The notes under the pieces: model-generated | Databases searched by the model: none | The model's input: the letters and a program-made list of their open reading frames with translations, nothing else | What the model was told of the DNA's origin: nothing | Shown here: one piece after another, positions 39,430-62,890 of the stretch | How the letters are laid out: each line of letters begins with the position of its first letter | How positions within the stretch are numbered: position 1 is the first letter of the stretch | Translations under genes and position numbers: made by a program | NCBI GenBank assembly: GCA_002717365.1 | Contig: PBDJ01000008.1 | Coordinates: forward strand, 1-64,000 | Source of the DNA: Acidimicrobiaceae bacterium | GTDB taxonomy: Bacteria; Actinomycetota; Acidimicrobiia; Acidimicrobiales; MedAcidi-G1 | DNA: 64,000 nucleotides | Direction of reading: 5' to 3'

Positions 39430-41310
39430 ATGGCGCTGACCGATGGTGAAACCCTGGTCGTTGAGGAGTCGTCACGGGCTGTCACGATTGCTCACCAGAT
39501 TCGCACAATGTCCTTACTCCGCCCCGAGAAGGTGGCGATGCGGGAGAAGGACTTCGGTATCTGGCAGGAGTACACCTGGGAGAAGACTTGGGATCTCGTC
39601 CACACGGCAGCTCACGGTCTGCTGGCCCTCGGTGTCGACGTCGGCGACCGAGTCTCGATCCAATCAGAGAACCGGCCTGAGTGGCTGATCCTGGACTTCG
39701 CCACAGTGGCTGTGCGCGGTATCACCGTTGGCTTTTACCCCACTAACCCCACGGCAGAGGTCGAGTACCTGTTGACCGACTGCGGGTCGATACTCCACCT
39801 GGCCGAGGACCAGGAACAGGTCGACCGGGTGCTCGAGATCGATAGTTCAAAAATCGCCGGTGTCCGAAAAATCCTCTACTGCGAACCCCGGGGTGTGCAG
39901 CAATACGACGACGAGCGGCTCCTGGCCTGGGATGACTTCCTAGCCATCGGACTGGAGCATCGGTTGGCCCATGAGCATGCCGTCGAGGACCGCATGGACC
40001 AGGCGCATGTCGACGACGTGATGACACTCGTCTACACGTCAGGGACGACGGGTCCGCCGAAGGGAGCGATGCTCACCCACGCCAACGTGGCCTACTGCAT
40101 GTCGTACTTCGACGACGCTGGCCTTCGAGGCGGACGCGCGCCGAGTAACGACGACGTTCAGGTCTGCTACCTGCCGCTGTGTCACGTGGCCGAGCGTATT
40201 TTTTCCACATTCCACGCAGCCCATATTGGCCTGACCCTCAACTTCGCTGAGTCCATCGACACCGTCCAGGAAAACCTCCGAGAGGTCCAGCCCACCCTGT
40301 TCTTCGCTGTGCCCCGGATCTGGGAGAAACTCCACGCTGGGGTCATGATCAAAGGTGCAGACGCCAGTGCGTTCAAGCGCCTGTGGCTGGGGTTCGGGTT
40401 CTTTCTCGCCGGGGTGATCGGTCGGGACAAAGTGGCCAACGGCGGCCTGCACACCTTCCGAAGCCGGCTACTGGCCGCTATCGGCTACCCACTGGTGTTC
40501 CGGGCCCTGAAGGAAAGGCTCGGTCTGCGACGCTGCTGGTACGCAGGATCCGGTGCAGCCCCCATTGCCCCGGAGATTCTGGAGTTCTTCATGGGGATCG
40601 GTGTGCCGGTCTACGAACTGTACGGAATGACTGAGAACTCGGCCATTGCCACCGCGAATTTTCCAGGGCGCCTGAAGTTGGGCACGGTTGGAGAGCCCCT
40701 TGGCCAGAACCGGCCGGAGTTCGGCTTTCGGATCGATGAGGAAACGGGTGAGATCCAGGTAAAGCACCCGGGGGTATTTGCCGGCTACTGGAACAAGCCC
40801 GAGCAGACGGCTGAGACTTTCACTGATGACGGTTGGCTCATGACTGGCGACGTCGGCGAGTGGGTGGAAGGCACCCATGTCCGGCTTGTGGACCGGATCA
40901 AGCACATCATCATCACCTCGGGGGGCAAGAACATCTCGCCCTCGGAGATCGAAAACAGCCTCAAGACGTCGCCCTACGTCAAGGAGGCCATGGTCATCGG
41001 GGACCGACGCAAGTTCCTGTCAGCGCTTATCGGTATCGAGTTGGACACCGTCGGCGACTGGGCCCTGCGGAAAAATATCCCGTACACCACGTACCGCGAC
41101 CTATCCGAAAAGCCTGAGGTCTTGGAACTCATCCAGGGTGTGATCAAGGAAACCAACGAGAAGTTCGCCCGGGTCGAGGAAGTCAAACGGTTCCGGATGA
41201 TTCCCAAGGAACTAGACCACGAGGACGGCGAGCTCACAGCTACCCAGAAGATCAAGAGGTCTTCTATGGAGGAAATGTTCAACGAACTCATTGAAGAGAT
41301 GTACGTGTGA
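39430..41310 (+). CDS. Long-chain acyl-CoA synthetase (AMP-binding)
   Basis: LVYTSGTTGPPKGAMLTHAN, YGMTENSAI, GWLMTGDVGEW, GGKNISPSEIEN. Confidence 0.94.
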   Translation: MALTDGETLVVEESSRAVTIAHQIRTMSLLRPEKVAMREKDFGIWQEYTWEKTWDLVHTAAHGLLALGVDVGDRVSIQSENRPEWLILDFATVAVRGITVGFYPTNPTAEVEYLLTDCGSILHLAEDQEQVDRVLEIDSSKIAGVRKILYCEPRGVQQYDDERLLAWDDFLAIGLEHRLAHEHAVEDRMDQAHVDDVMTLVYTSGTTGPPKGAMLTHANVAYCMSYFDDAGLRGGRAPSNDDVQVCYLPLCHVAERIFSTFHAAHIGLTLNFAESIDTVQENLREVQPTLFFAVPRIWEKLHAGVMIKGADASAFKRLWLGFGFFLAGVIGRDKVANGGLHTFRSRLLAAIGYPLVFRALKERLGLRRCWYAGSGAAPIAPEILEFFMGIGVPVYELYGMTENSAIATANFPGRLKLGTVGEPLGQNRPEFGFRIDEETGEIQVKHPGVFAGYWNKPEQTAETFTDDGWLMTGDVGEWVEGTHVRLVDRIKHIIITSGGKNISPSEIENSLKTSPYVKEAMVIGDRRKFLSALIGIELDTVGDWALRKNIPYTTYRDLSEKPEVLELIQGVIKETNEKFARVEEVKRFRMIPKELDHEDGELTATQKIKRSSMEEMFNELIEEMYV

Positions 41311-42281
41311 GCGGCCTCCCGCTGGTGCTGGCTGCCAACGCTTTGGACACCTTTGTCCAGACGCTCTTCAAGGCTCTCGCACTCGGGTCGCTCTATGCGC
41401 TTCTGGCACTCGGCTTCGTACTCATCTACAAAGCCACCCAGACGATCAACTTTGCCCAAGGAGCGCTAGCTCTCGCTGGGACCTGGTTTCTGTCGATCAT
41501 CTTCATGGACTGGGAAATACCCGGTCGTTGGATTGGTGGACCGGGTTGGGTCCACTGGTTCATCGCACTTTTGTTGGCTGCGACTGCCACGGCGGTGCTT
41601 GGCCTGATTGTCGAACGTCTAACTATTCGCCCGATGATTGGCGAACCCCTCTTCTCGATGGCTGTCATCACCCTCGGGCTGGAAGTCGTGATTCGAGTTG
41701 TCGCCTTCGACGCTGTCAACACCACCCCGCGGATACTTGGTATCCCATGGGGAGCGGAGACATTCAAAATCGGCGGCGCAATGGTTGCCTGGTCCTACAT
41801 CGCAGCCATTGGGATGGCCGGTGTCGCCTTCCTCGGCACCTGGCGGTTCTTCAAAACCCGGACCGGTGTGGCCATGAGGGCTACCGCCTTCGACCAGGAA
41901 GCAGCGCTCGCCCAGGGCATCAACGTCGGTCGGGTCTTCGCTATCGCCTGGGCGGCTGGAGCCGCCTTGGCTGCAATCTCCGGGATCTTCGCCTCAATGC
42001 CTCCCTGGGGCCCGGCTGGCTTAGCCAGTCGGGACGGTGCCTTCTTTGCCTTTCGTGCACTGCCAGCGGTGATTCTCGGCGGTCTTGATTCAGTTGTGGG
42101 GGCACTGATCGGTGGCCTAATTATCGGATTTGCCGAAGTATTCGCTGGTCAGTACCTCGCGAGTTACACAGGTGTCATTGGCACGGGCTACCAACAGGTA
42201 GTGCCCTACGTGGTCATGCTCGTTGGTCTTCTGGTGAGGCCCTACGGCATATTCGGGACAGCAGAGGTTCGCCGGGTATGA
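41307..42281 (+). CDS. Branched-chain amino acid-type ABC transporter permease (LivH-like)
   Basis: ALALGSLYALLALGFVLIYKATQTINFAQGALALAG, GGLDSVVGALIGGLIIGFAEV. Confidence 0.93.
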   Translation: MSGLPLVLAANALDTFVQTLFKALALGSLYALLALGFVLIYKATQTINFAQGALALAGTWFLSIIFMDWEIPGRWIGGPGWVHWFIALLLAATATAVLGLIVERLTIRPMIGEPLFSMAVITLGLEVVIRVVAFDAVNTTPRILGIPWGAETFKIGGAMVAWSYIAAIGMAGVAFLGTWRFFKTRTGVAMRATAFDQEAALAQGINVGRVFAIAWAAGAALAAISGIFASMPPWGPAGLASRDGAFFAFRALPAVILGGLDSVVGALIGGLIIGFAEVFAGQYLASYTGVIGTGYQQVVPYVVMLVGLLVRPYGIFGTAEVRRV

Positions 42282-43531
42282 GGGGTCGGCCGAACCTTTA
42301 CACGTCCTACGAGGCTGAGTCACAACTTATGCCCACGCGTACCAAGAAAGTCGTTCTCGGCCTCTTTCTGGTCGTGGCCGTGCTGATGCCGTTTGACCTG
42401 CCGATAATTGACCAACTCCCGGTCGTTCGCTTTCTAGGCGACAACGTGTGGCTCCGCCTCGTCAATAGGGCGCTCTGCTTCATGATTGCTGCACTCGGCT
42501 TGAACATTTTGTCGGGCCTAGCCGGTCAGATCTCATTGGGTCATACGTTCTTTGGAGGCGTTGGTGCCTACACGGCAGTGCTGATGGGGGGAAAGGCATC
42601 TTCGAATTTGTGGGGTTGGGGTCTTCCCATGTGGTTGTGGCTTCCGGCTGCCGGAGTCGTTGCTGCAGCAGTGGGCATCGCAGTCGCCCCCGCGGCGGTT
42701 CGAGTCCGTGGCCTGTACCTCGGCATCGTCACCCTTGGTCTCGTTTTCATCGGACTTCACCTCTCACGGGTATTTCCGGAAATAGCAGGCCCGGGCGCAC
42801 TAGGTCGCAAGTGGCCTCGGATGGAACTCCGGCTCTGGAAGGAGGATGAACCATTCCTCGACTTTTCCCGAGATGGGCATTGGCTGTGGTTCGACATCAA
42901 CAAGAACCAGAAGACCTACCTGTTTCTTCTGGTCGTCGTCATCGTCATGGCCTGGATGGCCGCCAACCTTGCTCGTAGCAGAACCGGTAGAGCACTTCAG
43001 GCCATTCGCGATCGTGATGTTGCCGCTGAGATCATGGGTGTCCCCGAATACCGTTACAAGACCACCGCGTTCGCTATCTCATCCTTCTATGCCGGGATTG
43101 GCGGGGCCCTGTTCGCCTCCCTGTCTGTGCAGCTACCCCCGGAACAATGGAGCCTCATCGGCGCGGTCACGTTCATCGCAGCGCTACTCATCGGAGGAAT
43201 GGGACGCGTGTCAGGAGTTCTGATGGGCTCATTCTTCGTCGTGACATCTCACCGTTTCGTTGAGGAGATCGTGGACTGGATGAAACACCAGGCTGAGGAG
43301 GGAGGCGTGTTCTCAGGTTTCTTCGATTTCCTGATCAGCACGGGACAAGGAGACGGCGGTTTCGTTTCCGTTATGGAGACTGCCCTGGGCTACCCGTTGC
43401 CAGTGAGCGCCCTTGATGAGATCATCTATGGCCTCCTAATCATCTTCTTTTTGCTATTCGAACCGTTAGGCCTTTATGGCATCTGGATCAAGATCCGCAA
43501 CTACTGGAAGGGATGGCCGTTCAGTTACTGA
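42278..43531 (+). CDS. Branched-chain amino acid-type ABC transporter permease (LivM-like)
   Basis: LGLNILSGLAGQISLGHTFFGGVGAYTAVL, GRALQAIRDRDVAAEIMGV. Confidence 0.93.
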   Translation: MRGRPNLYTSYEAESQLMPTRTKKVVLGLFLVVAVLMPFDLPIIDQLPVVRFLGDNVWLRLVNRALCFMIAALGLNILSGLAGQISLGHTFFGGVGAYTAVLMGGKASSNLWGWGLPMWLWLPAAGVVAAAVGIAVAPAAVRVRGLYLGIVTLGLVFIGLHLSRVFPEIAGPGALGRKWPRMELRLWKEDEPFLDFSRDGHWLWFDINKNQKTYLFLLVVVIVMAWMAANLARSRTGRALQAIRDRDVAAEIMGVPEYRYKTTAFAISSFYAGIGGALFASLSVQLPPEQWSLIGAVTFIAALLIGGMGRVSGVLMGSFFVVTSHRFVEEIVDWMKHQAEEGGVFSGFFDFLISTGQGDGGFVSVMETALGYPLPVSALDEIIYGLLIIFFLLFEPLGLYGIWIKIRNYWKGWPFSY

Positions 43532-43607: not shown

Positions 43608-45965
43608 ATGAAGCGTTTGACGAGGGTGTTGGCTCTGTTGCTGACGCTGACAATGATCGCCGCGGCTTGTGGCAGCGACGACGACGGGGACGTTGCTCCG
43701 GCGACGACAGCTGCTCCGGCGACGACAGCTGCTCCGGCGACGACAGCTGCTCCGGCGACGACAGCTGCTCCAACGACAGAGGCTCCTGTGGAGTCTTTGT
43801 CGGAGTTGAACGTGGCCTATTTCCTGGAATGGCCGACGGCCAACCAGGTAGCCCAGGTCGAACAGACCTATGACGATGCCCTGGGCATGACGGTGAATTG
43901 GTTGCCGTTCGGTTCCGGGGGCGACATGGCGTTGGCCATGGAGGCCGGCGACATTGACATCGCCTATTCGCAGGGTCTGACGCCGTTCGCGAACTTCGTG
44001 ACATCGGGGTCCGAGTTGGAGATTGTCGGCGTGGCGGTGAGTTATGCGGACGCTGATAACTGTGTGGCCCATCCCGACTACGGGGTGACGGCGGACAACG
44101 CGGCTGAGACGTTGGCCGGCCAGAAGGTTTATGCCCCGGTCGGCAATGTGACGCACTACAAGCTCCTCAAGATGTTGGGGCACCTGGGTGTGGCGTTGGA
44201 CAGTTTCGAGCATGTGCCGTCTGATGGTGGCGCTGCTGCAGTGGCCGCTTTTGAGAGCGGTGACGTGGCCATGGCTTGTGCGTTCGGTGGCGGTGTGCTG
44301 TCAATGCTGGCCGCCGGCGGGAACCTGGTCATGACCGGTTCGGAGCAGGAGGCCATCGGTATCCGGGTGTTTGACATCATCTCGATCCCGACCCAGTTCG
44401 GTATCGACCATCCGGACGTCGTCGAGACGTTCCTACAGGTCACCGAGGATGCCAACGCGGCCTACGCGAGTCACCGCGGTCCTCTCGAGGACACGATTGC
44501 TGAGGCGGCGGGTATGACCGTCGAGGGTTCGAACGCTCTGCTGGACATGTTCTCGTTCCCGGACCGGGCGACCCAGTTGTCCGACGCTTGGCTGGGCGGA
44601 ACCGTCCAGGACGTGATGAAGCAGCAGATGGACTTCTTCGTCGAGCAGGGAGAGATCCCCAAGGCGCTGGACTCCTACGACGCCTTCGTCAACACCACGT
44701 TCCTCGAGGCAATCGACGACGTCGAAGTCGTAGTCGTTCCTACCGCCTACGACTATGGGGTCACAGATGACACCATCCGGATCGGCGCTATTGCCGACCT
44801 CACTGGCATCTTCGCTCCGCTAGTCATCCAGATCATCGATGCCCAGACCTCGTACTGGAACATGGTCAACGACCACGGCGGTATCGACGGCAAGCAGGTT
44901 GACTTCGTTGTGATGGACAACGCCTACGACGTGCCGACTCACCTTGAACGCTACGAGGCGATGAAGGACAAAGATTCTGGTGTCGTATTCCTCAGCCAGT
45001 CGACGGGCTCGCCACACACGGCAGCAATCGCCGAGGATCTGGTTGCGGACGGCCTAGGAGCCATCCCGTTGTCGTGGTATTCGGGTTGGCCTGATCCGTC
45101 GTTCGGCAAGAACGTCTTCGAGTCGTATACGAACTACTGCTACGAGTCGATGAACGGTGTGGACTGGCTGGCCAGCAACGTTGTCGAGGGGGATGCCAAA
45201 CTCGCTGTTATTTCCTACCCGGGTGAGTACGGGCAGGATGGTGCGACCGGTGCCAAGATGGCCGCGGAGGCCCTGGGCATTGAAGTCGTCTATGACGGAG
45301 AGGGAGCAGCTATTCCCGGTGCCGATCAGACGCCGGTTATTGCCGGTCTGATCGAGTCCGGTGCCAACTTGGTATGGGCAACCGTGGGGCCATCGGTGTT
45401 TGCCGAGATCTTCGGTGGAGCTGCCGCTCAGGGCTTTCTGCCGATCTGGTCGGGTAACTCGCCGACCTACAACTACATGCTGCTGGCCACGCCGCTGGCA
45501 CCGGCGCTTGATGCGGTCTACTACCAGTCGAGTTATGTACTGGCGTGGAACACCAGTGATGCACCAGGCATGAAGCACATGGTGGCGGAGCTCCAGGATC
45601 GAATCCCGGACAAGCCTCTCTCGGATGTCTACGCAGTGGGCTGGACCGAGGCCATGGCTACGCACCAGATCCTCGAGACGGCAGCCAAGAACAAGGACAT
45701 GACCCGTGCCGGTGTGATTGCGGCGGCTAACGAGACGGTCGTGGACTATCAGGGCCTTGCTCCCAACCAGGGTTACGGCGGCGATATCAACGACTTCATC
45801 GTGAGGGAGTCGTACATCTTCGACATCCAGGCCGACCTGTTTGACGTCGAAGCCACGGTCGCTGGTGGCGGAAGCACAGGTTCGGTATTGCTGGCCGGCG
45901 GTCCGATCATGTCGGACCTGGCCCGCGATCACGTCTATGAGAGTGCCTGCTTCTCTGCTGGCTGA
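43608..45965 (+). CDS. Chimeric ABC substrate-binding lipoprotein: TauA-like type II SBP fused to LivK-like type I SBP
   Basis: Lipobox MIAAACGS; (APATTA)x4 linker; N-half LNVAYFLEWPTANQVAQVEQTYDDALGMTVNWLPFGSGGDMALAMEAGDIDIAYSQ; C-half TDDTIRIGAIADLTGIFAPLVIQIIDAQTSYWNMVNDHGGIDGKQVDFVVMDNAYD; continuous frame. Confidence 0.88.
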   Translation: MKRLTRVLALLLTLTMIAAACGSDDDGDVAPATTAAPATTAAPATTAAPATTAAPTTEAPVESLSELNVAYFLEWPTANQVAQVEQTYDDALGMTVNWLPFGSGGDMALAMEAGDIDIAYSQGLTPFANFVTSGSELEIVGVAVSYADADNCVAHPDYGVTADNAAETLAGQKVYAPVGNVTHYKLLKMLGHLGVALDSFEHVPSDGGAAAVAAFESGDVAMACAFGGGVLSMLAAGGNLVMTGSEQEAIGIRVFDIISIPTQFGIDHPDVVETFLQVTEDANAAYASHRGPLEDTIAEAAGMTVEGSNALLDMFSFPDRATQLSDAWLGGTVQDVMKQQMDFFVEQGEIPKALDSYDAFVNTTFLEAIDDVEVVVVPTAYDYGVTDDTIRIGAIADLTGIFAPLVIQIIDAQTSYWNMVNDHGGIDGKQVDFVVMDNAYDVPTHLERYEAMKDKDSGVVFLSQSTGSPHTAAIAEDLVADGLGAIPLSWYSGWPDPSFGKNVFESYTNYCYESMNGVDWLASNVVEGDAKLAVISYPGEYGQDGATGAKMAAEALGIEVVYDGEGAAIPGADQTPVIAGLIESGANLVWATVGPSVFAEIFGGAAAQGFLPIWSGNSPTYNYMLLATPLAPALDAVYYQSSYVLAWNTSDAPGMKHMVAELQDRIPDKPLSDVYAVGWTEAMATHQILETAAKNKDMTRAGVIAAANETVVDYQGLAPNQGYGGDINDFIVRESYIFDIQADLFDVEATVAGGGSTGSVLLAGGPIMSDLARDHVYESACFSAG
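43695..43766 (+). repeat. 18-bp tandem coding repeat x4 (APATTA) in lipoprotein linker
   Basis: gctccggcgacgacagct repeated four times. Confidence 0.95.
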
Positions 45966-46027: not shown

Positions 46028-46069
46028 CTGTTCGTTGCACCGGGACCGATTGGTCATTAGGGGTCATTG

Positions 46070-46864
46070 ATGCTTGAAGTGGCCAACCTAGAAGTGGTTT
46101 ATAACGAGGTCATCCTCGTCCTGCGCGGCCTGTCCATTGAGGTGCCAGATGGGCAGATTGTGGCCCTGCTGGGGGCCAACGGTGCCGGTAAGACAACGAC
46201 AACACGTGCCATAACCGGGCTGTTGGACGTTCACGAGGGCAAGATCACCAAGGGGACCGTCACCCTTGCTGGTGAGCGCATCGAAAATCTAGAACCGTCA
46301 CAAATTGTGCGGTCGGGTATCACCCAGGTGATGGAGGGCCGCCGGGTGTTCGCCGAGCTCACCGTTGACGAGAACCTGGTTACGGGTGGGATTACCAACA
46401 CCGACCGGGTCTCGATCTCCGAAGCCCACGACCGGGTCATGACAATGTTCCCAGTGTTGGCCGACCGACGGACCGCTACGGCGGGCTATTTGTCAGGCGG
46501 TGAGCAGCAGATGCTCGCTATTGGGCGAGCGCTGATGTCGAACCCGAAGTTGCTAATCCTTGACGAGCCGTCCCTAGGCCTGGCTCCCAAACTGGTGGCC
46601 CAAATCCGCGACACCATCGTCGAGATCAACCAGTCAGGGACCAGCGTCCTGCTCATCGAGCAGAACGCCAATATGGCCCTGTCCATCGCCGACTACGGCT
46701 ACATCATGGAGACCGGCAAGATCGTCATGGACGGCGAGGCTGCCAAGCTCCTCAAGGACGAGGACGTCCAGGAGTTCTACCTCGGCCTCCACGGTGATGG
46801 GGGCGACCGAAAGTCGTTCCGCGAGGTGAAGCACTACAAGCGACGGAAACGGTGGCTGTCATGA
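46070..46864 (+). CDS. ABC transporter ATP-binding protein (LivF-like)
   Basis: LLGANGAGKTTTTRAITGLL, YLSGGEQQMLAIGRALMSNPKLLILDEPSLGLAP. Confidence 0.93.
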   Translation: MLEVANLEVVYNEVILVLRGLSIEVPDGQIVALLGANGAGKTTTTRAITGLLDVHEGKITKGTVTLAGERIENLEPSQIVRSGITQVMEGRRVFAELTVDENLVTGGITNTDRVSISEAHDRVMTMFPVLADRRTATAGYLSGGEQQMLAIGRALMSNPKLLILDEPSLGLAPKLVAQIRDTIVEINQSGTSVLLIEQNANMALSIADYGYIMETGKIVMDGEAAKLLKDEDVQEFYLGLHGDGGDRKSFREVKHYKRRKRWLS

Positions 46865-47667
46865 ACGGTCCCCAGCAGAACGAGCCGCTGCTTGAGGTTG
46901 ACGGCATCAGCCTGTCATTCAAGGGCGTCAAGGCCATCAACGACGTGTCCTTTCAGGTAGGGACCGAAGAGTTGTTCGCCATCATCGGTCCCAACGGTGC
47001 TGGCAAGACCTCGATCTTCAACAGCATCAGCCAGGTGTACCACCCGCAGGAGGGGGACATCCGGTGGAAGGGCGAGTCCATCATGGGCAATCGTCCAGAT
47101 CGGGTTGCCGAACGGGGCATTGCCCGCACGTTCCAGAACATCGAACTCTTTCCGCATATGACGGTGCTGGAGAACCTGCTGCTGGGTCGCCACATTCGTA
47201 TGAAACGGTCCTGGTTGGCCGGTGCCCTGTGGTTCGGGCCAGCCAAGCGCGAGGAGATGGAACACCGGCGGGTCGTAGAGGACATCATCGACTTCCTGGA
47301 GATCGAACAGTGGCGGAAGCACCCGGTGGCGCTACTGCCCTATGGCTTTCAAAAACGCGTGGAACTGGGCCGGGCCCTGGCCATGGAGCCGGAACTACTC
47401 CTTCTGGACGAGCCAGTGGCCGGCATGAACCTGGAGGAGACCGAGGACATGGCCCGGTTCATCCTCGACATCCGGGAGGAACTTGGCATCTCGATCGTCC
47501 TGGTAGAGCACGACATGGGTCTGGTCATGGACATCGCCGACCGGGTGCTGGTGCTGGACTTCGGACAAAAGATCGCCGAAGGCATACCGGCCGACGTGCA
47601 GCGAGACCCGGCAGTGATTGCTGCCTATCTGGGTGATGAGGCGGGCTTGGCCACTACCGACCAATGA
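46852..47667 (+). CDS. ABC transporter ATP-binding protein (LivG-like)
   Basis: IIGPNGAGKTSIFNSISQVYHP, ARTFQNIELFPHMTVLENLLLG, LLDEPVAGMNLEETEDMARFI. Confidence 0.93.
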   Translation: MAVMNGPQQNEPLLEVDGISLSFKGVKAINDVSFQVGTEELFAIIGPNGAGKTSIFNSISQVYHPQEGDIRWKGESIMGNRPDRVAERGIARTFQNIELFPHMTVLENLLLGRHIRMKRSWLAGALWFGPAKREEMEHRRVVEDIIDFLEIEQWRKHPVALLPYGFQKRVELGRALAMEPELLLLDEPVAGMNLEETEDMARFILDIREELGISIVLVEHDMGLVMDIADRVLVLDFGQKIAEGIPADVQRDPAVIAAYLGDEAGLATTDQ

Positions 47668-48164
47668 CCGACGGGCCGCGTTCCGACCCGTTCCTAAAGC
47701 AGGCCACCGACCGGGTGGCCGGGTCGGATCCCGGTATCGACCTCGATCTTTTTCGCCTGTCGTTTGCCCTGACCCGGGCCGCCAACCGGTTTACCCGACA
47801 TGTGGAATCAGCGGTCCACCGGCCGCGCAACCTGTCCACGGCGAGGTTTCGTATCCTTTTCACCGTCTGGGCCTGTGGTCCGCTGGCCGCCCACCGGATC
47901 GCCGTGCTGGCCGGCCTGTCTCGAGCCTCGGTGTCCAGCGCGGTCAACATCTTGGAACGCGATGGACACGTGGTGCGTTCCAGGGGGCACGACGACCGCC
48001 GGCTAGTGACCGTGTCGCTGACCCCGACCGGGGAGGACGCGGTGAGCGATGCCTACGCGGGTCAACACGAGGTAGAACGCGACCTCTACGCTGCCCTCGG
48101 GACAGGAGACCGAGAGGTCCTGGCTCGCCTTCTAGAGTCACTGCTCGACGTTCCACTGGACTGA
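47664..48164 (+). CDS. MarR-family transcriptional regulator
   Basis: LSTARFRILFTVWACGPLAAHRIAVLAGLSRASVSSAVNILERDGHVVRSRGHDDRRLVTVSLTPTGEDAV. Confidence 0.92.
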   Translation: MTDGPRSDPFLKQATDRVAGSDPGIDLDLFRLSFALTRAANRFTRHVESAVHRPRNLSTARFRILFTVWACGPLAAHRIAVLAGLSRASVSSAVNILERDGHVVRSRGHDDRRLVTVSLTPTGEDAVSDAYAGQHEVERDLYAALGTGDREVLARLLESLLDVPLD

Positions 48165-48204: not shown

Positions 48205-50652
48205 CTAGAGGCGGACCTGCAGGCTGTCCGGGTCATAGAACGGTCGGTAAGAGGCCGTCGCCGGAACCAGTACACCGTTCACCGACACCTCGAAGGCGCC
48301 CTCGATGACAGCGGCCCTCGGGGTATCCGGCTCGCAGCCCACGTAGGCCATGCCCAAGGCCCCGCCCACCGTGTGGCCATACATGCCCGAGGTGATGCGA
48401 CCCACCAGAGCACCATCCCGGAACACCGGTTCGTCGTGGTAGAGCAACGGCTCCGGGTCGTCGAGGCGGAACTGGACCAGCCTCCGCGTCACCCCGGCCT
48501 CCTTCTGGGTTAACAGGGCCTCCCGACCGAGGAAGCCCCCGGGCTTGTCGAAGGCCACCCCCCATGAGAGGCCAGCCTCCAGCGGCGTGTCCTCCTCGGC
48601 GATGTCGTCGCCCCAGTGGCGGTAGGCCTTCTCCATCCGCAGGGAGTTCATGGCGTGGTAGCCGGCCGGTTTGAGGCCGGCTGAGGCGCCGGACTCCCAG
48701 AGGGAGTCAAAGGCGCCGACGGCGAACTCGGCAGGTACGTACAACTCCCAGCCCAGCTCGCCCATATAGGTCCGGCGCACAGCGATAGCCCGGGCATACG
48801 CCAGGTCGATCTCTTGCAGGGTGCCGAACGGGAAGGCCTCGTTAGACAGGTCGGCGTCGGTCAGCGGTGCCACGATGTCGCGGGCCCGGGGTCCGAACAC
48901 GCCCAGCACGGCGTAGCCGGAGGTCACGTCGGTGACCGTTATGCGGGCGTCGTCCGGAGTATTGCGGGCGATCCAGTCGGCGTCCTTGACCTGGGTGGTG
49001 TAGGCGGTGACCACCAGGAACCTTTCCTCGTCTAGGCGGTTGACGGTCAGGTCGGCTTCGATCCCGCCCCGATCATTCAGCCACGTGGTGTACACCGAGG
49101 TGCCCGGTTCGACGTCGATGTCAGCCGACGAGATCCGGTTCAGCACGGCGCAAGCGTCGGGACCTTGGACGAGCAGCTTGGCCAGCGAGGTCTGGTCGAA
49201 AAGGGCCGCACCCTCCCGGCAGGCCCGGTGCTCGGCCGCCGAGTGTTCGAACCAGTTCTGGCGTCCGTAGGTGTACTCGTAGACCGGCTCCATGCCATCA
49301 GGGGCGTACCAGTTCGGCCGCTCCCAGCCGCCGTTCTCACCGTGGCAGGCCCCAAGGTCCACAAGACGGTCATGGACCGGGGATCGGCGCACGCCACGGG
49401 CCGTCTCGACCTGGCGAAACGGCCAGTGCATGGCGTACAACAGACCGAGGGCCTCGACCGATCGGTCGTGGAGGTACCGGCGGTTGGTCTGGAAGGACTG
49501 CATGCGACGGATGTCGACGTCCCACAGGTCCATGGGGGGCCGGCCGTTGACGATCCACTCGGCAAGCACCTTGCCGGCGCCTCCGGCTGATTGCATGCCG
49601 ATGGAGTTGAAGCCGGTAGCCACCCAGTGGTTGCGTAGTTCCGGGGTCTCGCCCAGCAGGTACCGGTCGTCGGGGGTGAACGACTCAGGACCGTTGAAAA
49701 ACAGACGGATGCCCACATCGACCAAGGCGGGGATGCGCTTGCACGCCGCTTCCCACACCGGAGCCAGGTGCTCCCAGTCTTCGTCGAGCTGCATAAACGG
49801 CCGGTCGGTGGGGATGCCATCCATACCGAACGGCTTGGCCACCGGCTCAAAGGCACCAACCATCAAGCGGCCAGCCTCCTCCTTCACATAAATGCAGTTG
49901 TCGGTGTCGCGCAACACCGGTAGACCCGACGGCAGGTCCGGGATCGGTTCAGTAACCAGATAGAAGTGCTCGCAGGCGTGCAGCGGGATATTGACACCGA
50001 TGTCGCGGCCCAACTGGTGTGACCACATACCGGCTGCCGTGATGACATGCTCGGCATCAATCAGACCCTGGTCGGTGTCTACGCCGACAGCTCGGCCATC
50101 GGCGGTGCGGATACGCTCGACCGATACGCCCTCAAGGATCCGGACGCCCTTCTCCTTGGCTACGGCGGCCAGGGCCATCGTGGTGTCGACCGGGGAGGCC
50201 TGGCCATCGCCGGGCAGCCACACGCCACCGACGATCCCCTCGGGGTTGAGTAGCGGGTAGCGCCCACAGAGGTCCTCGGCGGTGATTACCTCGACGTCCA
50301 CGTCAAAGGCGTTGGCCATACCGGCGCCCCGGACGAGTTCTTCCATTCGTTCCGAGTTGTCGGCCACGCTGAGCGATCCGACCTTCCTGAAACCGGTGGG
50401 GTGACCCATCTCATGCTCAAGGGCGTCGTAAAGCTCGGCCGAGTAGGCGGCCAAACGGGTCATGTTGTGGGTGGCCCGGAGGCAGCCAACGAGGCCAGCC
50501 GCGTGCCAGGTGGTGCCGCTGGTCAGCGTGTTGCGCTCCAGCAGGACCACGTCGTTCCAGCCCAGTTCAGCAAGGTGGTAGGCCACGCTGGCGCCGACGA
50601 TGCCACCACCGATGATGACAACCTGGGCCCGATCGGGGACTTGCTTGGCCAT
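48205..50652 (-). CDS. FAD-dependent oxidoreductase / GcvT fusion (dimethylglycine/sarcosine dehydrogenase-like)
   Basis: VVIIGGGIVGASVAYHLAELGWNDVVLLERNTLTSGTTWHAAGLVG; C-terminal GCV_T/aminomethyltransferase domains (RRTYMGELGWELYVPAEFA). Confidence 0.9.
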   Translation of the reverse strand: MAKQVPDRAQVVIIGGGIVGASVAYHLAELGWNDVVLLERNTLTSGTTWHAAGLVGCLRATHNMTRLAAYSAELYDALEHEMGHPTGFRKVGSLSVADNSERMEELVRGAGMANAFDVDVEVITAEDLCGRYPLLNPEGIVGGVWLPGDGQASPVDTTMALAAVAKEKGVRILEGVSVERIRTADGRAVGVDTDQGLIDAEHVITAAGMWSHQLGRDIGVNIPLHACEHFYLVTEPIPDLPSGLPVLRDTDNCIYVKEEAGRLMVGAFEPVAKPFGMDGIPTDRPFMQLDEDWEHLAPVWEAACKRIPALVDVGIRLFFNGPESFTPDDRYLLGETPELRNHWVATGFNSIGMQSAGGAGKVLAEWIVNGRPPMDLWDVDIRRMQSFQTNRRYLHDRSVEALGLLYAMHWPFRQVETARGVRRSPVHDRLVDLGACHGENGGWERPNWYAPDGMEPVYEYTYGRQNWFEHSAAEHRACREGAALFDQTSLAKLLVQGPDACAVLNRISSADIDVEPGTSVYTTWLNDRGGIEADLTVNRLDEERFLVVTAYTTQVKDADWIARNTPDDARITVTDVTSGYAVLGVFGPRARDIVAPLTDADLSNEAFPFGTLQEIDLAYARAIAVRRTYMGELGWELYVPAEFAVGAFDSLWESGASAGLKPAGYHAMNSLRMEKAYRHWGDDIAEEDTPLEAGLSWGVAFDKPGGFLGREALLTQKEAGVTRRLVQFRLDDPEPLLYHDEPVFRDGALVGRITSGMYGHTVGGALGMAYVGCEPDTPRAAVIEGAFEVSVNGVLVPATASYRPFYDPDSLQVRL

Positions 50653-50804: not shown

Positions 50805-52175
50805 ATGAGCACCCATCGGGAACTGGCCAGGAAGCACCTCGTACCCCACTTCACCCCGAAGGCGGCATGGCACAGCGACAGCCTGCCCGTCATCGAACGC
50901 GGCGAAGGCTGCTACCTCTACGACGTCGACGGCAACGAGTACTTGGACGGATTAGCCGGCTTGTTCTGCGTCAACATCGGTCACGGGCGACCAGATCTGT
51001 CGGCTGCCGCAGCTAAGCAGATGGACACGCTGTCCTACTCCACCAACTGGGGTTTCGCACACCCGCCATCCATCGAAGCGGCGACCATGATCGCCGGTTT
51101 CGCTCCTGGGGATTTGAGCGAGACCTTCTTCGTGAGCTCAGGGTCCGAGGCCGTGGAGTCAGCCATCAAATTTGCCCGCAACTACCATTTGGCACGGGGA
51201 GACGAGAGCCGGTACAAGGTCATCTCTCGCAACTGGGCCTACCACGGAACCACCCTGGGAGCGCTCTCGGTGACCGGCATCCCCAAGTTCCGGGACCCTT
51301 ACCTGCCGATCCTGTGGGACGGTACCCGCCACGTGCCCAACACCCGGCAGTGCACCTCACCGGACGGTACTCCGGTTGCCGAGTTGTCCTGCGTGCAGGC
51401 CGTCGAGGAGACCATTCTGGCTGAGGGCCCGGAGACGGTTTCCATGGTCATTGCCGAGCCAATCCAGAACGGTGGTGGTGCCCTGGTCCCACCCGACGGG
51501 TACTGGCAGGAACTCCGCCGCATCTGCGATCGGTATGGCGTGCTACTGGTTGCCGACGAGGTCATCTGCTCATTCGGCCGGTTCGGCCACTGGTTCGCCA
51601 GCGAGCGCAACGGCGTGGTGCCCGACATGATTACCTTCGCCAAAGGCGTCACATCGGCTTACCAGCCCTTGGGTGGCATGGTCATCAGGGGCCCGCTGGT
51701 CGACGAGGTTTTCGACTCGTCTATTGGTTCGTACGTGCACGGTTCCACCTTCGGGGGTCATCCGGTGGCTACCGCAGTGGCCGTGGCCAACATGACCGCT
51801 ATGAGCGACGAGGGCGTCATGCAGCACGTTCTGGACACTGAGGACTACTTCACCGACCAACTCCGGGCCATGGGTGAAGCCCATGCCTGTGTCCGGGAGG
51901 TCCGGGGTACAGGCTTCTTCTACGCCGTCGACCTGTGCGCGGACTCGGACACCAACCGAGACCTCAGCACGACCCAGGAGGCTGGCCTACGGGGTGGCGT
52001 CCTGGGAGGCATGGTCCGCGAGGAGCGCATGACGGTCCGTCCTGACGACCGTGGTTACACAGGCTTGAGCATCTCGCCGCCCCTGGTCGCCGACCGGGCG
52101 GTGATCGACGACTTGGTGGCCCGGGTCGACCGGGTGGCCGACCGGGTTGATACCTGGCTGACCGGGAACGACTGA
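50805..52175 (+). CDS. Class III aminotransferase, taurine:pyruvate aminotransferase (Tpa)-like
   Basis: LPVIERGEGCYLYDVDGNEYLDGLAGLFCVNIGHG, FFVSSGSEAVESAIKFAR, LLVADEVICSFGRFGHWF, ITFAKGVTSAYQPLGG. Confidence 0.8.
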   Translation: MSTHRELARKHLVPHFTPKAAWHSDSLPVIERGEGCYLYDVDGNEYLDGLAGLFCVNIGHGRPDLSAAAAKQMDTLSYSTNWGFAHPPSIEAATMIAGFAPGDLSETFFVSSGSEAVESAIKFARNYHLARGDESRYKVISRNWAYHGTTLGALSVTGIPKFRDPYLPILWDGTRHVPNTRQCTSPDGTPVAELSCVQAVEETILAEGPETVSMVIAEPIQNGGGALVPPDGYWQELRRICDRYGVLLVADEVICSFGRFGHWFASERNGVVPDMITFAKGVTSAYQPLGGMVIRGPLVDEVFDSSIGSYVHGSTFGGHPVATAVAVANMTAMSDEGVMQHVLDTEDYFTDQLRAMGEAHACVREVRGTGFFYAVDLCADSDTNRDLSTTQEAGLRGGVLGGMVREERMTVRPDDRGYTGLSISPPLVADRAVIDDLVARVDRVADRVDTWLTGND

Positions 52176-52259: not shown

Positions 52260-53066
52260 GTGAAGGATCTCTCAGTAGGTGAGCTAGGCATGGTCTACGA
52301 GCTGCCGAAGGGCGGTTCGGTCGAGGCCCTGCAAAACGTCTCTTTCGACCTCAGGGCAGGACGGCTCCTGACGCTGCTCGGGCCCTCGGGGTGTGGGAAG
52401 ACCACGCTGCTCAACATCATTGCCGGCTTCCTGGCGCCGACCTCCGGTTCGGTCACCCTTGGAGGAGACTCCATCACCGGTCCCGGACAGGAACGAGGCA
52501 TGGTGTTCCAGCAGGGAGCCCTGTTCGAGTGGCAGACGGTTTCCCAGAACGTGGCCTTCGGACCCCGAATGAACCGGAAGAAGCGTTCGGAGACCGAGAC
52601 CCTGGTCCGCGACCTACTGTCCACGGTTGGGCTCCAGGGCTTTGGCGACAAGGCGGTCTATGAGCTGTCAGGCGGGATGCAGCAGCGCGTTGCCCTAGCC
52701 CGCTGTCTGGCCAACGACCCCGAAGTCATCCTCATGGACGAGCCGCTCGGTGCCCTGGATGCCCTCACTCGGGAGAAGATGCAAGGGCTCATCCTCAAAC
52801 TCTGGCAGGAGACCGGAAAGACAATCATCCTGGTCACCCATAGCGTGGAGGAGGCCCTCTACCTGGGGGACCGCCTGTTCGTGATGGCCCCCCGGCCAGG
52901 CCGGATCGAGCGGGAGTATGAGCTTCCCTTCGCCAAGGAGGGCCTGGACGTGGACCCGCGTGCGATGAAGGCCTCTCCCGAGTTCATCGCCAAGCGGGAG
53001 GAGTTGCTGTCCCTCATCTGGGAGATGGAGGAGCAGATCATGGGCCACGAGGGGGCGATGTCATGA
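52260..53066 (+). CDS. ABC transporter ATP-binding protein (TauB/SsuB-like)
   Basis: LLGPSGCGKTTLLNIIAGFLAPTSGSVTLGG, GMVFQQGALFEWQTVSQNVAFGP, LSGGMQQRVALARCLANDPEVILMDEPLGALDALTR. Confidence 0.9.
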   Translation: MKDLSVGELGMVYELPKGGSVEALQNVSFDLRAGRLLTLLGPSGCGKTTLLNIIAGFLAPTSGSVTLGGDSITGPGQERGMVFQQGALFEWQTVSQNVAFGPRMNRKKRSETETLVRDLLSTVGLQGFGDKAVYELSGGMQQRVALARCLANDPEVILMDEPLGALDALTREKMQGLILKLWQETGKTIILVTHSVEEALYLGDRLFVMAPRPGRIEREYELPFAKEGLDVDPRAMKASPEFIAKREELLSLIWEMEEQIMGHEGAMS

Positions 53067-53920
53067 CCGTCCTGTCCCGCTTCCGACCCGCTGGCCGCAA
53101 CAGGAGTGCCGGTGCCCGTAAGACGGTGACCTTTGGAGACGCCTCAGAGGTCAAAGGCTCACCGTCGTGGAGTGTCGCATCGTTGATCTTCCTGTTCTTC
53201 GTCTGGTGGTGGATCAAACGGGGACCGGACCCCATGATCAACGACCGCACCTTCCCATCACTTCGCCAGAGTTGGGACGCCTTCTTCGAACTCGTGGACA
53301 TCGGCTACCGGCGGGTCGGGTTGTGGGACCACACCTGGGCCAGCCTGTGGCGGGTGCTCAAGGGCCTCATCTACGGAGTAGTGGTGGGCGTGCCTGTGGG
53401 CTTTGCCATGGGACTTTCCAACCGGCTCCGAGGCATCTTCGACCCCGTTGTGGAACTCCTCCGCCCCGTGCCGCCCCTGGCTCTTCTGCCGCTGTTTATC
53501 GTGTGGTTTGGCATTGGTGAGGGCTCGAAGGTCAACCTCCTGTTCTTCGCTGCAGTGTGGATCATGGTCATCGCGGCGAGGGCCGGAGTACTGGGCGTGC
53601 ACGGCTCCAAGGTCCACGCTGCCTACTCGCTGGGGGCCAGCAGGTGGCAGATCCTGCGCTACGTGATCCTCCCGAACGCCCTTCCCGACATCTTTACCGG
53701 GATGCGGGTGGCTCTCGGCGTGTGCTGGGGGACCCTGGTGGCCGCAGAGCTCACCGGAACTACCACCGGCCTGGGAGCCATGATCTTTGCTGCCTCGAAA
53801 TTTTTCCGGATGGACATCGTGGTGGTGTCAATCATCATCATCGGGGTCATCGGCGTGGCCATGGACCTCGTCATGCGGTTCTTGGAACGACGCCTCATCC
53901 CCTGGCGTGGTAAGGGCTGA
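53063..53920 (+). CDS. ABC transporter permease (TauC/SsuC-like)
   Basis: [60 protein letters not shown]-loop [30 protein letters not shown]. Confidence 0.92.
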
Positions 53921-53931
53921 CGTCCTCCCGG

Positions 53932-54831
53932 ATGATCCGTCCCACCCCGATTGTCGCCGACTGGTACGCCCGAGCGGCTGCCGATCCGGCCCGGGTGGTT
54001 CTGGCCGATGCTGGAGATCCGCGAGCCGACGAGGCGACGGCCCGCCTTATCGACGAGGGTCTAGCCGTGCCGGTTCCCCCGGAAGTGGACCCCACCGACG
54101 TCCGTCAGGACGAGGCCGTGGCCCGGGCGATCGAGGCGGGCCTGGATCCCGACGACCCGGTGGTGGCGGCCACCGTGCTGGTCCGGTCCGGAGTAGCTGA
54201 CGCCGCGGTGGCCGGGGCGACCCGGCCCACAGCCGACGTAGTCCGCGCTGGCCTGCGGGTGATCGGGACGGTGTCGGATGCCGACGTGGTGTCCAGCTGT
54301 TTTCTCCTGGTCCTGCCCGACGGCCGTCCGGTGGCCTACGGAGACTGCGGCGTGATACCTGACCCGGATGCCGCCCAGTTGGCCTCTATCGCATTGGCCA
54401 CTGCCGCTACGTTCGCTGCGCTGGTTGGTAAAGAACCACGGGTAGCCCTGTTGTCGTTTTCGACCCGGGGAAGTGCCGAACACCCAAGGGTTGACAAGGT
54501 CCGGGAGGCCACAGCACTGGTTGCCGACCGGTGTCCCGGGCTAGCTGTGGACGGCGAGCTTCAGTTCGACACGGCATGGGTGCCTGAGGTAGCGGCGGCC
54601 AAGGCCCCGGGTTCGCCGGTAGCCGGATCGGCCAACGTATTTGTGTTCCCAGACCTGGACAGTGGAAACATTGCCTACAAGATCACTGAGAGGCTGGGCG
54701 GAGCCCGAGCCTTCGGGCCACTGCTCCAGGGTCTCGGCGGGGTTCTTCACGATCTGTCACGAGGCTGTTCGGCTGATGACGTCGTAGACGTGGCGGTGAT
54801 CGCTGGGCTGCAGGCCCGCGCCACAGCCTGA
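53932..54831 (+). CDS. Phosphate acetyl/acyltransferase (Pta-like)
   Basis: [103 protein letters not shown]. Confidence 0.9.
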
Positions 54832-55729: not shown

Positions 55730-56305
55730 GTGAGCCGAAGAACCCTGGATACGCAGCAGGTGGTGGAGAGCGCGGCAGCTTTGGCCGACGCCGAGGGGCT
55801 GGACGCCGTGACCCTTACCCGGGTGGCCGAGCATCTGGGCGTTCGCCAGCCGGCCCTGTACCGCCACGTTGACAGCTTCGACGCCCTTATCCGAGCTCTC
55901 GGCCTCCGGGGTCGCGGAATCCTGGCCGACCGCTTGGGGGCGGCTGCCGTGGGAATGGCCGGAGACGATGCCGTGTGGGCCATGGGCGTGGCGTGGCGGT
56001 CCATGGTGGCCGACCACCCGGGCCTCTATGCGGCAACCGACCGCTATCCGTGCGCCACAGACCCGGAACTGGAGGAAGCGGTGGAGCGAGTGGTCGAGGT
56101 GCTGGGTCAAGCCCTAACCGCCTACGGGCTGAGCGACGTCGACCGCGTCCACGCCGCTCGCTCCATGCGGAGTGTCTTTCACGGTTTTGCCCACCTCGAG
56201 TCGGGTGACGGACACCCTTACGCCCTCGATCTGGACGACAGCTTCAACCGCCTGGTCAACCTGCTGTGTGCCGGCATCCGGCAGATGGCAACTGTGCCCG
56301 TTTGA
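55730..56305 (+). CDS. TetR-family transcriptional regulator
   Basis: VVESAAALADAEGLDAVTLTRVAEHLGVRQPALYRHVDSFDALIRAL. Confidence 0.9.
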   Translation: MSRRTLDTQQVVESAAALADAEGLDAVTLTRVAEHLGVRQPALYRHVDSFDALIRALGLRGRGILADRLGAAAVGMAGDDAVWAMGVAWRSMVADHPGLYAATDRYPCATDPELEEAVERVVEVLGQALTAYGLSDVDRVHAARSMRSVFHGFAHLESGDGHPYALDLDDSFNRLVNLLCAGIRQMATVPV

Positions 56306-56345
56306 TCCGACCGAACATTCCGACGGCTCGACGAGTGATTTTGCC

Positions 56346-57893
56346 ATGACCCGCCTTGGCTTCGTCCTGGACTCCGGGAGCTGCATCGGTTGCCATGCCT
56401 GCACGGTGGCCTGCAAGAGCGAGCACGATGTTCCGCTGGGCGTCAATCGCACGTGGCTCAAGTACGTGGAGACCGGAACCCATCCGGATACCGAACGCCA
56501 CTTTTCGGTCATGCGGTGTAACCACTGTGACGACGCCCCATGCATGACCATCTGTCCGACGTCGGCCCTCTTTCGCTCCGACAACGGAGTTGTCGACTTC
56601 AACGATGACAACTGCATTGGCTGCAAGGCGTGCATGAACGCCTGTCCATACGACGCCATCTACCTCAACCCGCAGACGAAGACTGCTCACAAGTGCAATT
56701 TTTGCAACCACCGGGTGGAGGACGGTCTGGAGCCGTCGTGCGTCGTGGTGTGCCCCACCCAGGCCATCAGGGTCGGGGACCTAGACGATCCGTCGTCGGA
56801 GATCTCCCGACTCCACGCCGGCGGCGGGATGGTCCGGTCACCGGAGCAGAACACCCGGCCTAAGGTCGTCTACACGGGTGTCTCGTCGGCATCGCTGGAC
56901 CCTCTGGCCTCGGCCATCGCCGGCGATGGGATGATCTGGGCAGACACAACACCCGCCCACTCCACGCCCACGTCGGTCGCGTTAACCGCCGCCCCCGTAC
57001 GGGACGACGGACAGGACATGGCCCGCACCACTTACACCACCCAGCATCCGCCGACCTGGGGATCGATGGTGTCGGGGTACCTGGTCACCAAGGCCATCGC
57101 CGCCGGCGTGATGCTGATGGCCGCCCTTCTAGTCCTCCTCGGGCACGGAGACGACCGAATGGCCGTCGGTGTGGTCCCCCCCGTGGTGGCCGGTGTATTC
57201 CTGGCTCTCACCGGGGTGCTGCTGGTCGGTGACCTCAAGCAGCCGAAGCGATTCGTCTACCTGTTCACCCGGGGCAACCGAACATCCTGGTTGGTCAAGG
57301 GAGCCTGGGTCCTTGGTGCCTTTGCGGCCTGTCTGGCCGCCTGGTGGATCGCCAGCCTGACCGGCGCCGGGGGAGCGCTCGCAGCGCTGGCGGTGCCGAC
57401 CGCCCTACTGGCCCTGGGAACGGCCGGGTACACGGCATTCCTATTCAGCCAGTGCGAGGGCCGGGACCTGTGGCAGGAACCGCTGCTGCTGCCGGTGCTG
57501 GTGAGCCAGGCCGTCATGGCCGGTGGGGCTACCTATTCGCTGCTCGACCTGTTCCTGGACGTCCCGTCCCATGGGGCTATCAAGTGGGCTTTCCTAGCCG
57601 GCCTAGTGGCCAACACCGGCCTCGTGGCCGCCGAACTAACTAGCGTGCACTCCCGCCACGTGACTATGGCCCTGGCCGAGTTGCGGTGGGGCGGCCAGCG
57701 GAAGCGTTACCGCGAGTTCGTTTTTTGCACGGCCTTCTCGCTGGTGTTCCTTGGCCTGGACGTCGTGTTCGGCGAAATCGTCTTCGACTGGTCCGGTCCG
57801 GTCCAGCCGCTCGTCCCCCTGGCCGCCCTATACGGCCTGTTCGCCTACGAGGACGCCTACGTGCGGGCCGGCCAGTCGGTCCCGCTCTCCTAG
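56346..57893 (+). CDS. Fused four-cluster ferredoxin plus NrfD/PsrC membrane subunit (SoeB-SoeC-like)
   Basis: CIGCHACTVAC, CNHCDDAPCMTIC, CIGCKACMNACPYDA, CNFCNHRVEDGLEPSCVVVCP, then eight or so TM helices of the NrfD type. Confidence 0.88.
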   Translation: MTRLGFVLDSGSCIGCHACTVACKSEHDVPLGVNRTWLKYVETGTHPDTERHFSVMRCNHCDDAPCMTICPTSALFRSDNGVVDFNDDNCIGCKACMNACPYDAIYLNPQTKTAHKCNFCNHRVEDGLEPSCVVVCPTQAIRVGDLDDPSSEISRLHAGGGMVRSPEQNTRPKVVYTGVSSASLDPLASAIAGDGMIWADTTPAHSTPTSVALTAAPVRDDGQDMARTTYTTQHPPTWGSMVSGYLVTKAIAAGVMLMAALLVLLGHGDDRMAVGVVPPVVAGVFLALTGVLLVGDLKQPKRFVYLFTRGNRTSWLVKGAWVLGAFAACLAAWWIASLTGAGGALAALAVPTALLALGTAGYTAFLFSQCEGRDLWQEPLLLPVLVSQAVMAGGATYSLLDLFLDVPSHGAIKWAFLAGLVANTGLVAAELTSVHSRHVTMALAELRWGGQRKRYREFVFCTAFSLVFLGLDVVFGEIVFDWSGPVQPLVPLAALYGLFAYEDAYVRAGQSVPLS

Positions 57894-57914
57894 GCCGCGA
57901 TCCGGGGCACGACG

Positions 57915-60778: not shown

Positions 60779-61489
60779 TTACAGGTAAGCGTTAGCTGTT
60801 AGGTCGGCGGGGACTACTGAGTCGATCACGGTTCGCAGCGTGGACTCGAAGAGCGATGGCAGGTCACTGCTGGTGGCTAGGGCTTCACGGGTTACCGGAT
60901 CTAGGTCCGGGTCGTCAAGGTCGGCCAGCACCGAGGTGCGGCGATGGTCGGCTGGGACGAGGTCGTCCAGCATGGTGATCACGATGAAGCCACCCACGCA
61001 CGCCGTGATGGCTCGTAGGGCGTCGCGGGCCGCCTCGCCTACCACCCCGGACTCTTGTAACTCGCGTGCCATGGCCAACTCCAGATGCTGGGCGTGGAGT
61101 GACGCAGCCCCGTGGGCGCTGGCTAACCGGCTGATCTCCCGGTGGGTAATGGCGCTCTCCCAGATGAGGCGAGCCACAGCCAGGACGCGGTCGCGCGCCG
61201 TTGCGCCCTCCACAGGGGCCTCAGCCAGTCGGGCACCGTGGCGACGGACCAGGGCGGTGATCAACTCGGAGCGGTTGCCCACATGCCAGTAGATGGTGGT
61301 TGTGGCCACGTCAAGCTCGTTGGCCAGGCGTCGCATAGTCAGGGCGTCGGCCCCGTCGGTCTCGACCAAGGTGATAGCTCGGTCCAGGATTTCTGTGGCT
61401 CCGATGCCAGCCCGGCGTCCAGGGTGTCGGGAATCCCCGTCGGTGGGTTCAGGTGGTGGCATTTCCGGTGCTTTGGGGTTGTGTTCCAT
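60779..61489 (-). CDS. TetR-family transcriptional regulator
   Basis: ATEILDRAITLVETDGADALTMRRLANELDVATTTIYWHVGNRSELITALV; ATG at 61489. Confidence 0.9.
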   Translation of the reverse strand: MEHNPKAPEMPPPEPTDGDSRHPGRRAGIGATEILDRAITLVETDGADALTMRRLANELDVATTTIYWHVGNRSELITALVRRHGARLAEAPVEGATARDRVLAVARLIWESAITHREISRLASAHGAASLHAQHLELAMARELQESGVVGEAARDALRAITACVGGFIVITMLDDLVPADHRRTSVLADLDDPDLDPVTREALATSSDLPSLFESTLRTVIDSVVPADLTANAYL

Positions 61490-61503
61490 GGGTGATCTCT
61501 GCA

Positions 61504-61532
61504 ACAGTGTACAAGATCGAATAGGACACTGT
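61504..61532. promoter_or_regulatory. Candidate TetR operator (inverted repeat ACAGTGT-N15-ACACTGT)
   Basis: Perfect 7-bp arms in the intergenic gap between divergent tetR and amidohydrolase genes. Confidence 0.55.
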
Positions 61533-61577
61533 CCAAGAGGCGGTTGCTGCCCGAGGACTGAGAAACCGGAGGAATCC

Positions 61578-62858: not shown

Positions 62859-62890
62859 CCGGAAAGAACGACCACTAGCGAGGACTAGCC

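Follow-up and report, generated by a model that had tools for sequence, protein, structure and literature searches.

One open reading frame in the window (the whole 64,000-nucleotide stretch of Acidimicrobiaceae DNA analysed here) encodes a lipid-anchored polypeptide that, in our assessment, probably comprises two complete, independent receptors serving two ABC importers of a single gene cluster. The frame joins two different substrate-binding protein (SBP) folds through a conserved junction, the permease sets of both importers are present, and TauA domains co-occur with the TauC permease. The features of the region are collected in Table 1.

Table 1. Features of the fusion gene and of the Liv and taurine gene clusters around it (positions in the window).
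Feature	Position	Strand	Evidence and remarks
livH-type permease	41307..42281	+	BPD_transp_2
livM-type permease	42278..43531	+	BPD_transp_2
Fused two-receptor SBP lipoprotein gene	43608..45965	+	785 aa; Pfam, phmmer, AlphaFold, Foldseek
Signal peptide and lipobox, Cys21 expected to be lipidated	43608..43670	+	sequence
Flexible linker with (APATTA)4, aa 22-64	43671..43799	+	sequence; model confidence low there
TauA-type (type II) substrate-binding domain, aa 65-372	43800..44723	+	phmmer, NCBIfam, pocket alignment, Foldseek
Short inter-domain junction VEVVVVPTA, aa 373-381	44724..44750	+	model and DNA comparison
LivK-type (type I, Peripla_BP_6) substrate-binding domain, aa 382-785	44751..45962	+	Pfam, phmmer, Foldseek
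livF-type ATPase	46067..46864	+	Pfam, NCBIfam; start more likely at the ATG at 46070
livG-type ATPase	46852..47667	+	Pfam, NCBIfam
MarR-family regulator	47664..48164	+	Pfam
Dimethylglycine-dehydrogenase (DMGDH)-like oxidoreductase (DAO+FAO_M+GCV_T)	48205..50652	-	Pfam; 5l46 at E 6e-140, nearly full length
Class III aminotransferase; Tpa (taurine:pyruvate aminotransferase) by context	50805..52175	+	Pfam, NCBIfam
TauB-type ATPase	52260..53066	+	TauB is the top NCBIfam model (E 8e-84, under the cut-off)
TauC-type permease	53063..53920	+	TauC is the top NCBIfam model (E 6e-73, under the cut-off)
Phosphotransacetylase-like (Pta)	53932..54831	+	NCBIfam

The sequence, the searches and the structural model all bear out the layout proposed in the first-pass annotation, an uninterrupted frame with a lipobox, an (APATTA)4 linker and a type II followed by a type I domain. 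The frame contains no internal stop, a GAGGGG ends 9 nt upstream of its ATG, and the signal peptide with the lipobox TMIAAAC and Cys21 identifies the product as a lipoprotein. The two halves belong to different SBP families, TauA-type and Peripla_BP_6. In DNA comparisons, homology to other TauA fusions ends at about nucleotide 1124 of the gene, and homology to other livK genes starts at about nucleotide 1137. The AlphaFold model of the fusion (mean pLDDT 71, pTM 0.44) displays two compact units with a low-confidence stretch at aa 373-380 in between; given the low pTM, the relative placement of the units is meaningless. Neither Pfam nor the model reveals a permease domain in the frame, which sets it apart from the GlnPQ type, where the binding domains are fused to a transmembrane domain.

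In Pfam, the N-half gives a sub-threshold match to NMT1_2 only. Its resemblance to E. coli TauA, previously noted by eye, is confirmed by phmmer (6ssy, E 7e-19 over aa 69-365), by the best NCBIfam model, taurine_ABC_bnd (TIGR01729, an equivalog model; E 6e-34), and by Foldseek, where this half of the AlphaFold model adopts the TauA fold with a target TM of 0.88 on 6ssy. The taurine_ABC_bnd score of 117.9 bits lies under the curated cut-off of 304 bits, short of equivalog assignment. Asp205 of E. coli TauA is the residue that determines taurine selectivity (PMC6906117). Its equivalent is kept in the fusion (as Asp256), together with those of Ser60, Gly61 and Gly79, and the equivalents of Gln30, Thr132 and Glu106 are changed to Phe, Val and Asp. 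All ten inspected pocket positions are identical across the 59 TauA domains compared (59/59), fused or free, so these domains probably share one ligand. As judged from the pocket sequence, taurine is the likely ligand, and another small amino-sulfonate is possible since the Gln30 and Thr132 equivalents are replaced and Glu106 is Asp.

The C-half is a clear Peripla_BP_6 domain (PF13458, aa 389-718, E 8e-37, 128.2 bits versus a cut-off of 31.7). The Pfam and NCBIfam calls place the gene where it had been located at first reading, in the SBP position of a Liv operon with the order livH-livM-[TauA+LivK]-livF-livG-marR. The combination of TauA-like and LivK-like receptors in one chimera is real, but the accompanying idea that the C-half binds Leu, Ile or Val is not supported. 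The closest structure is the type I SBP 4n03 of Thermomonospora curvata (phmmer E 1e-40; Foldseek TM 0.79), which its deposition describes as a fatty-acid SBP. Next to the operon, the DMGDH-like gene is the customary neighbour, and it adjoins the orthologous Liv operon in the relatives examined. This neighbour argues against branched-chain amino acids and for another ligand, which may be an N-methylated amine or amino acid.

Past the Liv operon, the DMGDH-like gene on the other strand is followed by the genes aminotransferase-tauB-tauC-pta, with tauB and tauC 6.3 kb downstream of the fusion gene. No tauA lies between the aminotransferase gene and tauB in the window; a free tauA fills this gap in the relatives L038 and L039 and in many sponge-associated Acidimicrobiia, in which it frequently encodes a tandem TauA-TauA protein. 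The aminotransferase is not established as a proven Tpa, as its best model is a general one with a score below the cut-off, and it is identified by context. A gene for Xsc above the curated cut-off is found on another contig of the same genome (G000:C7), which makes a route from taurine to acetyl-CoA through the aminotransferase, Xsc and Pta plausible; the search for Xsc covered 23 family genomes, and 21 of them have a gene above this cut-off. Beyond the taurine cluster, inspection by eye suggested a ferredoxin-type 4Fe-4S/membrane protein with a 942-aa molybdopterin-oxidoreductase-like protein (56172-60743) and two amidohydrolase-like frames in a row (61293-64000).

From this arrangement, the following mechanism can be proposed. 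Both receptors would fold independently on the one lipid-anchored chain. The TauA domain would capture taurine or a close amino-sulfonate and pass it to TauBC (52260-53920), and the LivK domain would capture a second, different ligand and pass it to LivHMFG. Imported taurine would then enter the Tpa-Xsc-Pta route. The short inter-domain linker may limit simultaneous docking. The ligands, the docking and the action of the product as one uncleaved protein are predictions.

The same architecture was found when related genomes were searched for it, as the first-pass annotation had advised. The TauA-LivK fusion occurs with the same junction between the two domains, reading VEVVVVPTA or VEVVVVPSA, in four genomes of the genus: that of the window (G000), G001 (98% protein identity and 94% DNA identity over the full length), G008 (96%, with the contig starting inside the TauA domain) and G013 (78%). 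In one genome per species from 85,462 species, a search whose reach is limited to close relatives, no TauA-LivK protein was detected beyond such relatives.

Support for delivery to two permeases comes from the distribution of the TauA domain. Across the 37 family genomes, a TauA domain and an intact TauC occur together in 13, TauC alone in one, TauA alone in none and neither of them in 23 (Fisher 3.9e-9, in a test that ignores shared ancestry and is applied to draft MAGs). The single exception, G007, contains TauBC, and a TauA domain was not found there. The partner of TauA in the 13 genomes is LivK in G000, G001, G008 and G013, SBP_bac_5 in G002, G003, G014, G015 and G016, and type I plus Bmp domains in G020, while TauA is free beside tauB in G019, G021 and G025. 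The TauA domain thus moves and the association with TauC stays, whatever the partner and even without one, suggesting that the partner is irrelevant to TauBC. Decay of tauBC has left short remnants in G005 and G006, while tauB is broken in G028 and tauC is truncated in G029, and none of these four genomes has a TauA domain; in G006, the livK locus carries a different partner. At L150, L152, L157 and L161, tauB and tauC have decayed independently (fused remnant, truncation, split frame), and the aminotransferase and pta genes remain. Because tauBC belongs to this cluster and TauA domains follow TauC from genome to genome, delivery to two permeases, one of the uses suggested in the first-pass annotation, is now the best-supported reading. 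The other suggestion made there, that one ligand is sensed and another transported, is not supported. Neither tauBC nor the many other partner combinations of the clade figured in that annotation. Recent transfer of a TauA cassette was also considered and is not supported: the DNA identity to the SBP_bac_5-fused copies is 86-87%, near the 82-84% of tauB, tauC and the aminotransferase gene.

Other pairs of domain and permease fit the notion that each domain serves its own importer. In 23 genomes, OpuAC and ProV are both present in 12, ProV only in two, OpuAC only in one and neither in eight (Fisher 7e-4); in G001 and G011, the sole close OpuAC domain lies within a fusion and a ProV gene is present. 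In G005, the order livH-livM-[type I+SBP_bac_5]-dppB-dppC-dppD-dppF puts a fusion where the genes of two importers meet. In G003 (contig C66; L145, 2352-9522), an operon that lacks livK is itself chimeric: immediately after livH-livM come genes for an OpuAC lipoprotein, for ProV and for a BPD_transp_1 (ProW-like) permease.

The fusion belongs to a larger set. The orthologous livK locus encodes TauA as the N-terminal partner in four genomes, OpuAC in G003, G015 and G002 (from the tail), a different type I domain in G005 and G022 and, judging from short tails, G011 and G017, NMT1 in G006 and Bmp+SBP_bac_3 in G025; the assignments for G002, G003, G005, G011, G015, G017 and G025 are based on partial domains or short tails, several partners being cut by contig ends and G025 being cut inside LivK. 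No partner is present in G010, G014, G028, G030 and G034. Elsewhere, the family combines TauA+type I+OpuAC, TauA+SBP_bac_8, type I+SBP_bac_5, OpuAC+SBP_bac_5, Bmp+SBP_bac_5, Bmp+Bmp+SBP_bac_5, type I+NMT1, type I+Bmp+type I, Bmp+SBP_bac_3+OpuAC and type I+beta-lactamase-fold. The genome of the window encodes a second multi-domain SBP (L081), in which a type I domain precedes a divergent domain that shares 52-65% identity with the final domains of L122 and L125, that of L125 being type I-like with a weak Pfam match. By our count, about half of the type I SBP genes in ten family genomes are multi-domain.

Several related arrangements were observed in passing. Sponge-associated Acidimicrobiia carry a tandem TauA-TauA directly upstream of tauBC, chromosome-level assemblies included (L042, L045, L046, L047, L048, L052, L057, L063-L066, L068). 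The lipoproteins that join a type I SBP to a beta-lactamase fold (PF00144) are at L083 (7418-10087, minus strand) and L127 (6183-9173, minus strand), and L091 is a tandem of two PF00144 domains. Tandem SBP copies with identical HMM scores in G021 (L121, L123, L124, L131) reflect very recent duplication, gene conversion or an assembly effect.

A stretch of signal and linker DNA recurs at many sites per genome, and G013 contains several copies of one type I cassette, with 80-87% DNA identity, fused to different partners; these repeats suggest that the fusions are made by recombination between SBP genes. On balance, we lean slightly towards the view that this family of marine Acidimicrobiales maintains combinatorial multi-receptor lipoproteins, with two or three unrelated SBP folds (from TauA, type I, OpuAC, Bmp, SBP_bac_3, SBP_bac_5, NMT1 and SBP_bac_8) per lipid anchor, partners swapped among species at a given locus, and each domain serving its own importer in trans. 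The same recurrent DNA would also be expected if shuffling were neutral, similar signal and linker stretches recombining and both halves being kept because each still works, with no benefit from tethering. The five different partners, or none, at the livK locus and the variously fused cassettes of G013 fit this explanation, which does not conflict with two working halves. Against it, junctions are conserved across species within each fusion class, the pocket of fused TauA domains is invariant, and a use is suggested by gene seams (L082, for example) and by how many fusions there are; we regard neutral shuffling as rather unlikely, while leaving it some weight.

It appears improbable that both domains feed LivHMFG alone, as tandem receptors for two ligands in the manner of GlnPQ. 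The fusion gene does lie within the Liv operon, and relatives without tauBC have retained Xsc and, in most cases, the aminotransferase, so that taurine or a precursor may enter by Liv as well. However, TauA domains vanish together with tauBC instead of being retained with Liv, and five genomes have TauA fused to SBP_bac_5 outside the Liv operon, in L034, where this was checked, in an opp/dpp operon with permeases and ATPases on its flanks. A sensory or surface role for the TauA half, in place of one in transport, is conceivable in principle and very improbable given its tight co-occurrence with the TauC permease and a fusion protein in which Pfam finds no signalling domain. Finally, a spurious union of two genes of a repeat-rich MAG by misassembly or a frame error, to which the many multi-SBP genes at contig ends might point (as expected of repeated cassettes), is largely refuted and hardly credible, since the same junction recurs in the three other species, at 78-98% identity across the four genomes, from different studies and with intact flanking operons, and tandem TauA-TauA genes also occur in the chromosome-level sponge-symbiont assemblies OX638344 and OX638350. 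As a control for chance long frames in GC-rich DNA, type I SBP frames of at least 750 aa were examined in other families of the order, most shorter ones being too small for two such domains. Eight of about 147 listed type I genes lie in such frames, of which one has two SBP domains (a tandem, G061) and seven only one; frame length alone was therefore not taken as evidence.

If one anchored protein serves two importers of different classes, as it apparently does in a clade that recombines its receptors freely, the survival of SBP-permease specificity under tethering becomes testable. The case also bears on the economy of surface receptors in bacteria of the oligotrophic ocean and on the evolution of receptor repertoires by domain shuffling. 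Homology-based annotation names such proteins by one half, and only the C-half passes in Pfam here.

The taurine dissimilation clusters of alphaproteobacteria have the form tpa-tauABC-xsc-pta. The present cluster shares the aminotransferase, tauBC and pta genes with them, with xsc elsewhere in the genome, but has no tauA gene, the TauA domain being inside the Liv SBP. Textbook ABC importers have one SBP each, or several SBPs sharing one importer. Ionotropic glutamate receptors also combine type I and type II periplasmic-binding folds in one polypeptide, in the opposite domain order and in a eukaryotic ion channel. Compared with E. coli TauA (6ssy; PMC6906117), the fusion domain has the same fold, the four retained pocket residues and the company of TauB and TauC, and differs in its 27% identity, the three altered pocket positions, the attached second receptor and the lipid anchor. 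The C-half resembles 4n03 and the Peripla_BP_6 family in fold, in sequence (about 27% identity over the C-half) and in its Liv-type operon, but sits behind another SBP in one chain. GlnPQ of Lactococcus is one importer with tandem substrate-binding domains fused to its permease (PMC8025302). The fusion protein likewise presents two covalently linked receptors, with predicted different ligands, near the membrane; its lipoprotein chain joins folds of two importers, whereas the GlnPQ domains sit on the permease of one. GlnPQ and OpuA were the only fused or tandem SBPs found in a literature search that covered few subscription papers, so that absence is weak evidence, and lipoproteins in which SBPs of unlike fold and importer are joined did not turn up in this partial search. 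Tandem receptors on one permease are already known from GlnPQ and OpuA; the combinatorial receptor set would be more than a variant of the known tandem receptors if a functional rule were shown.
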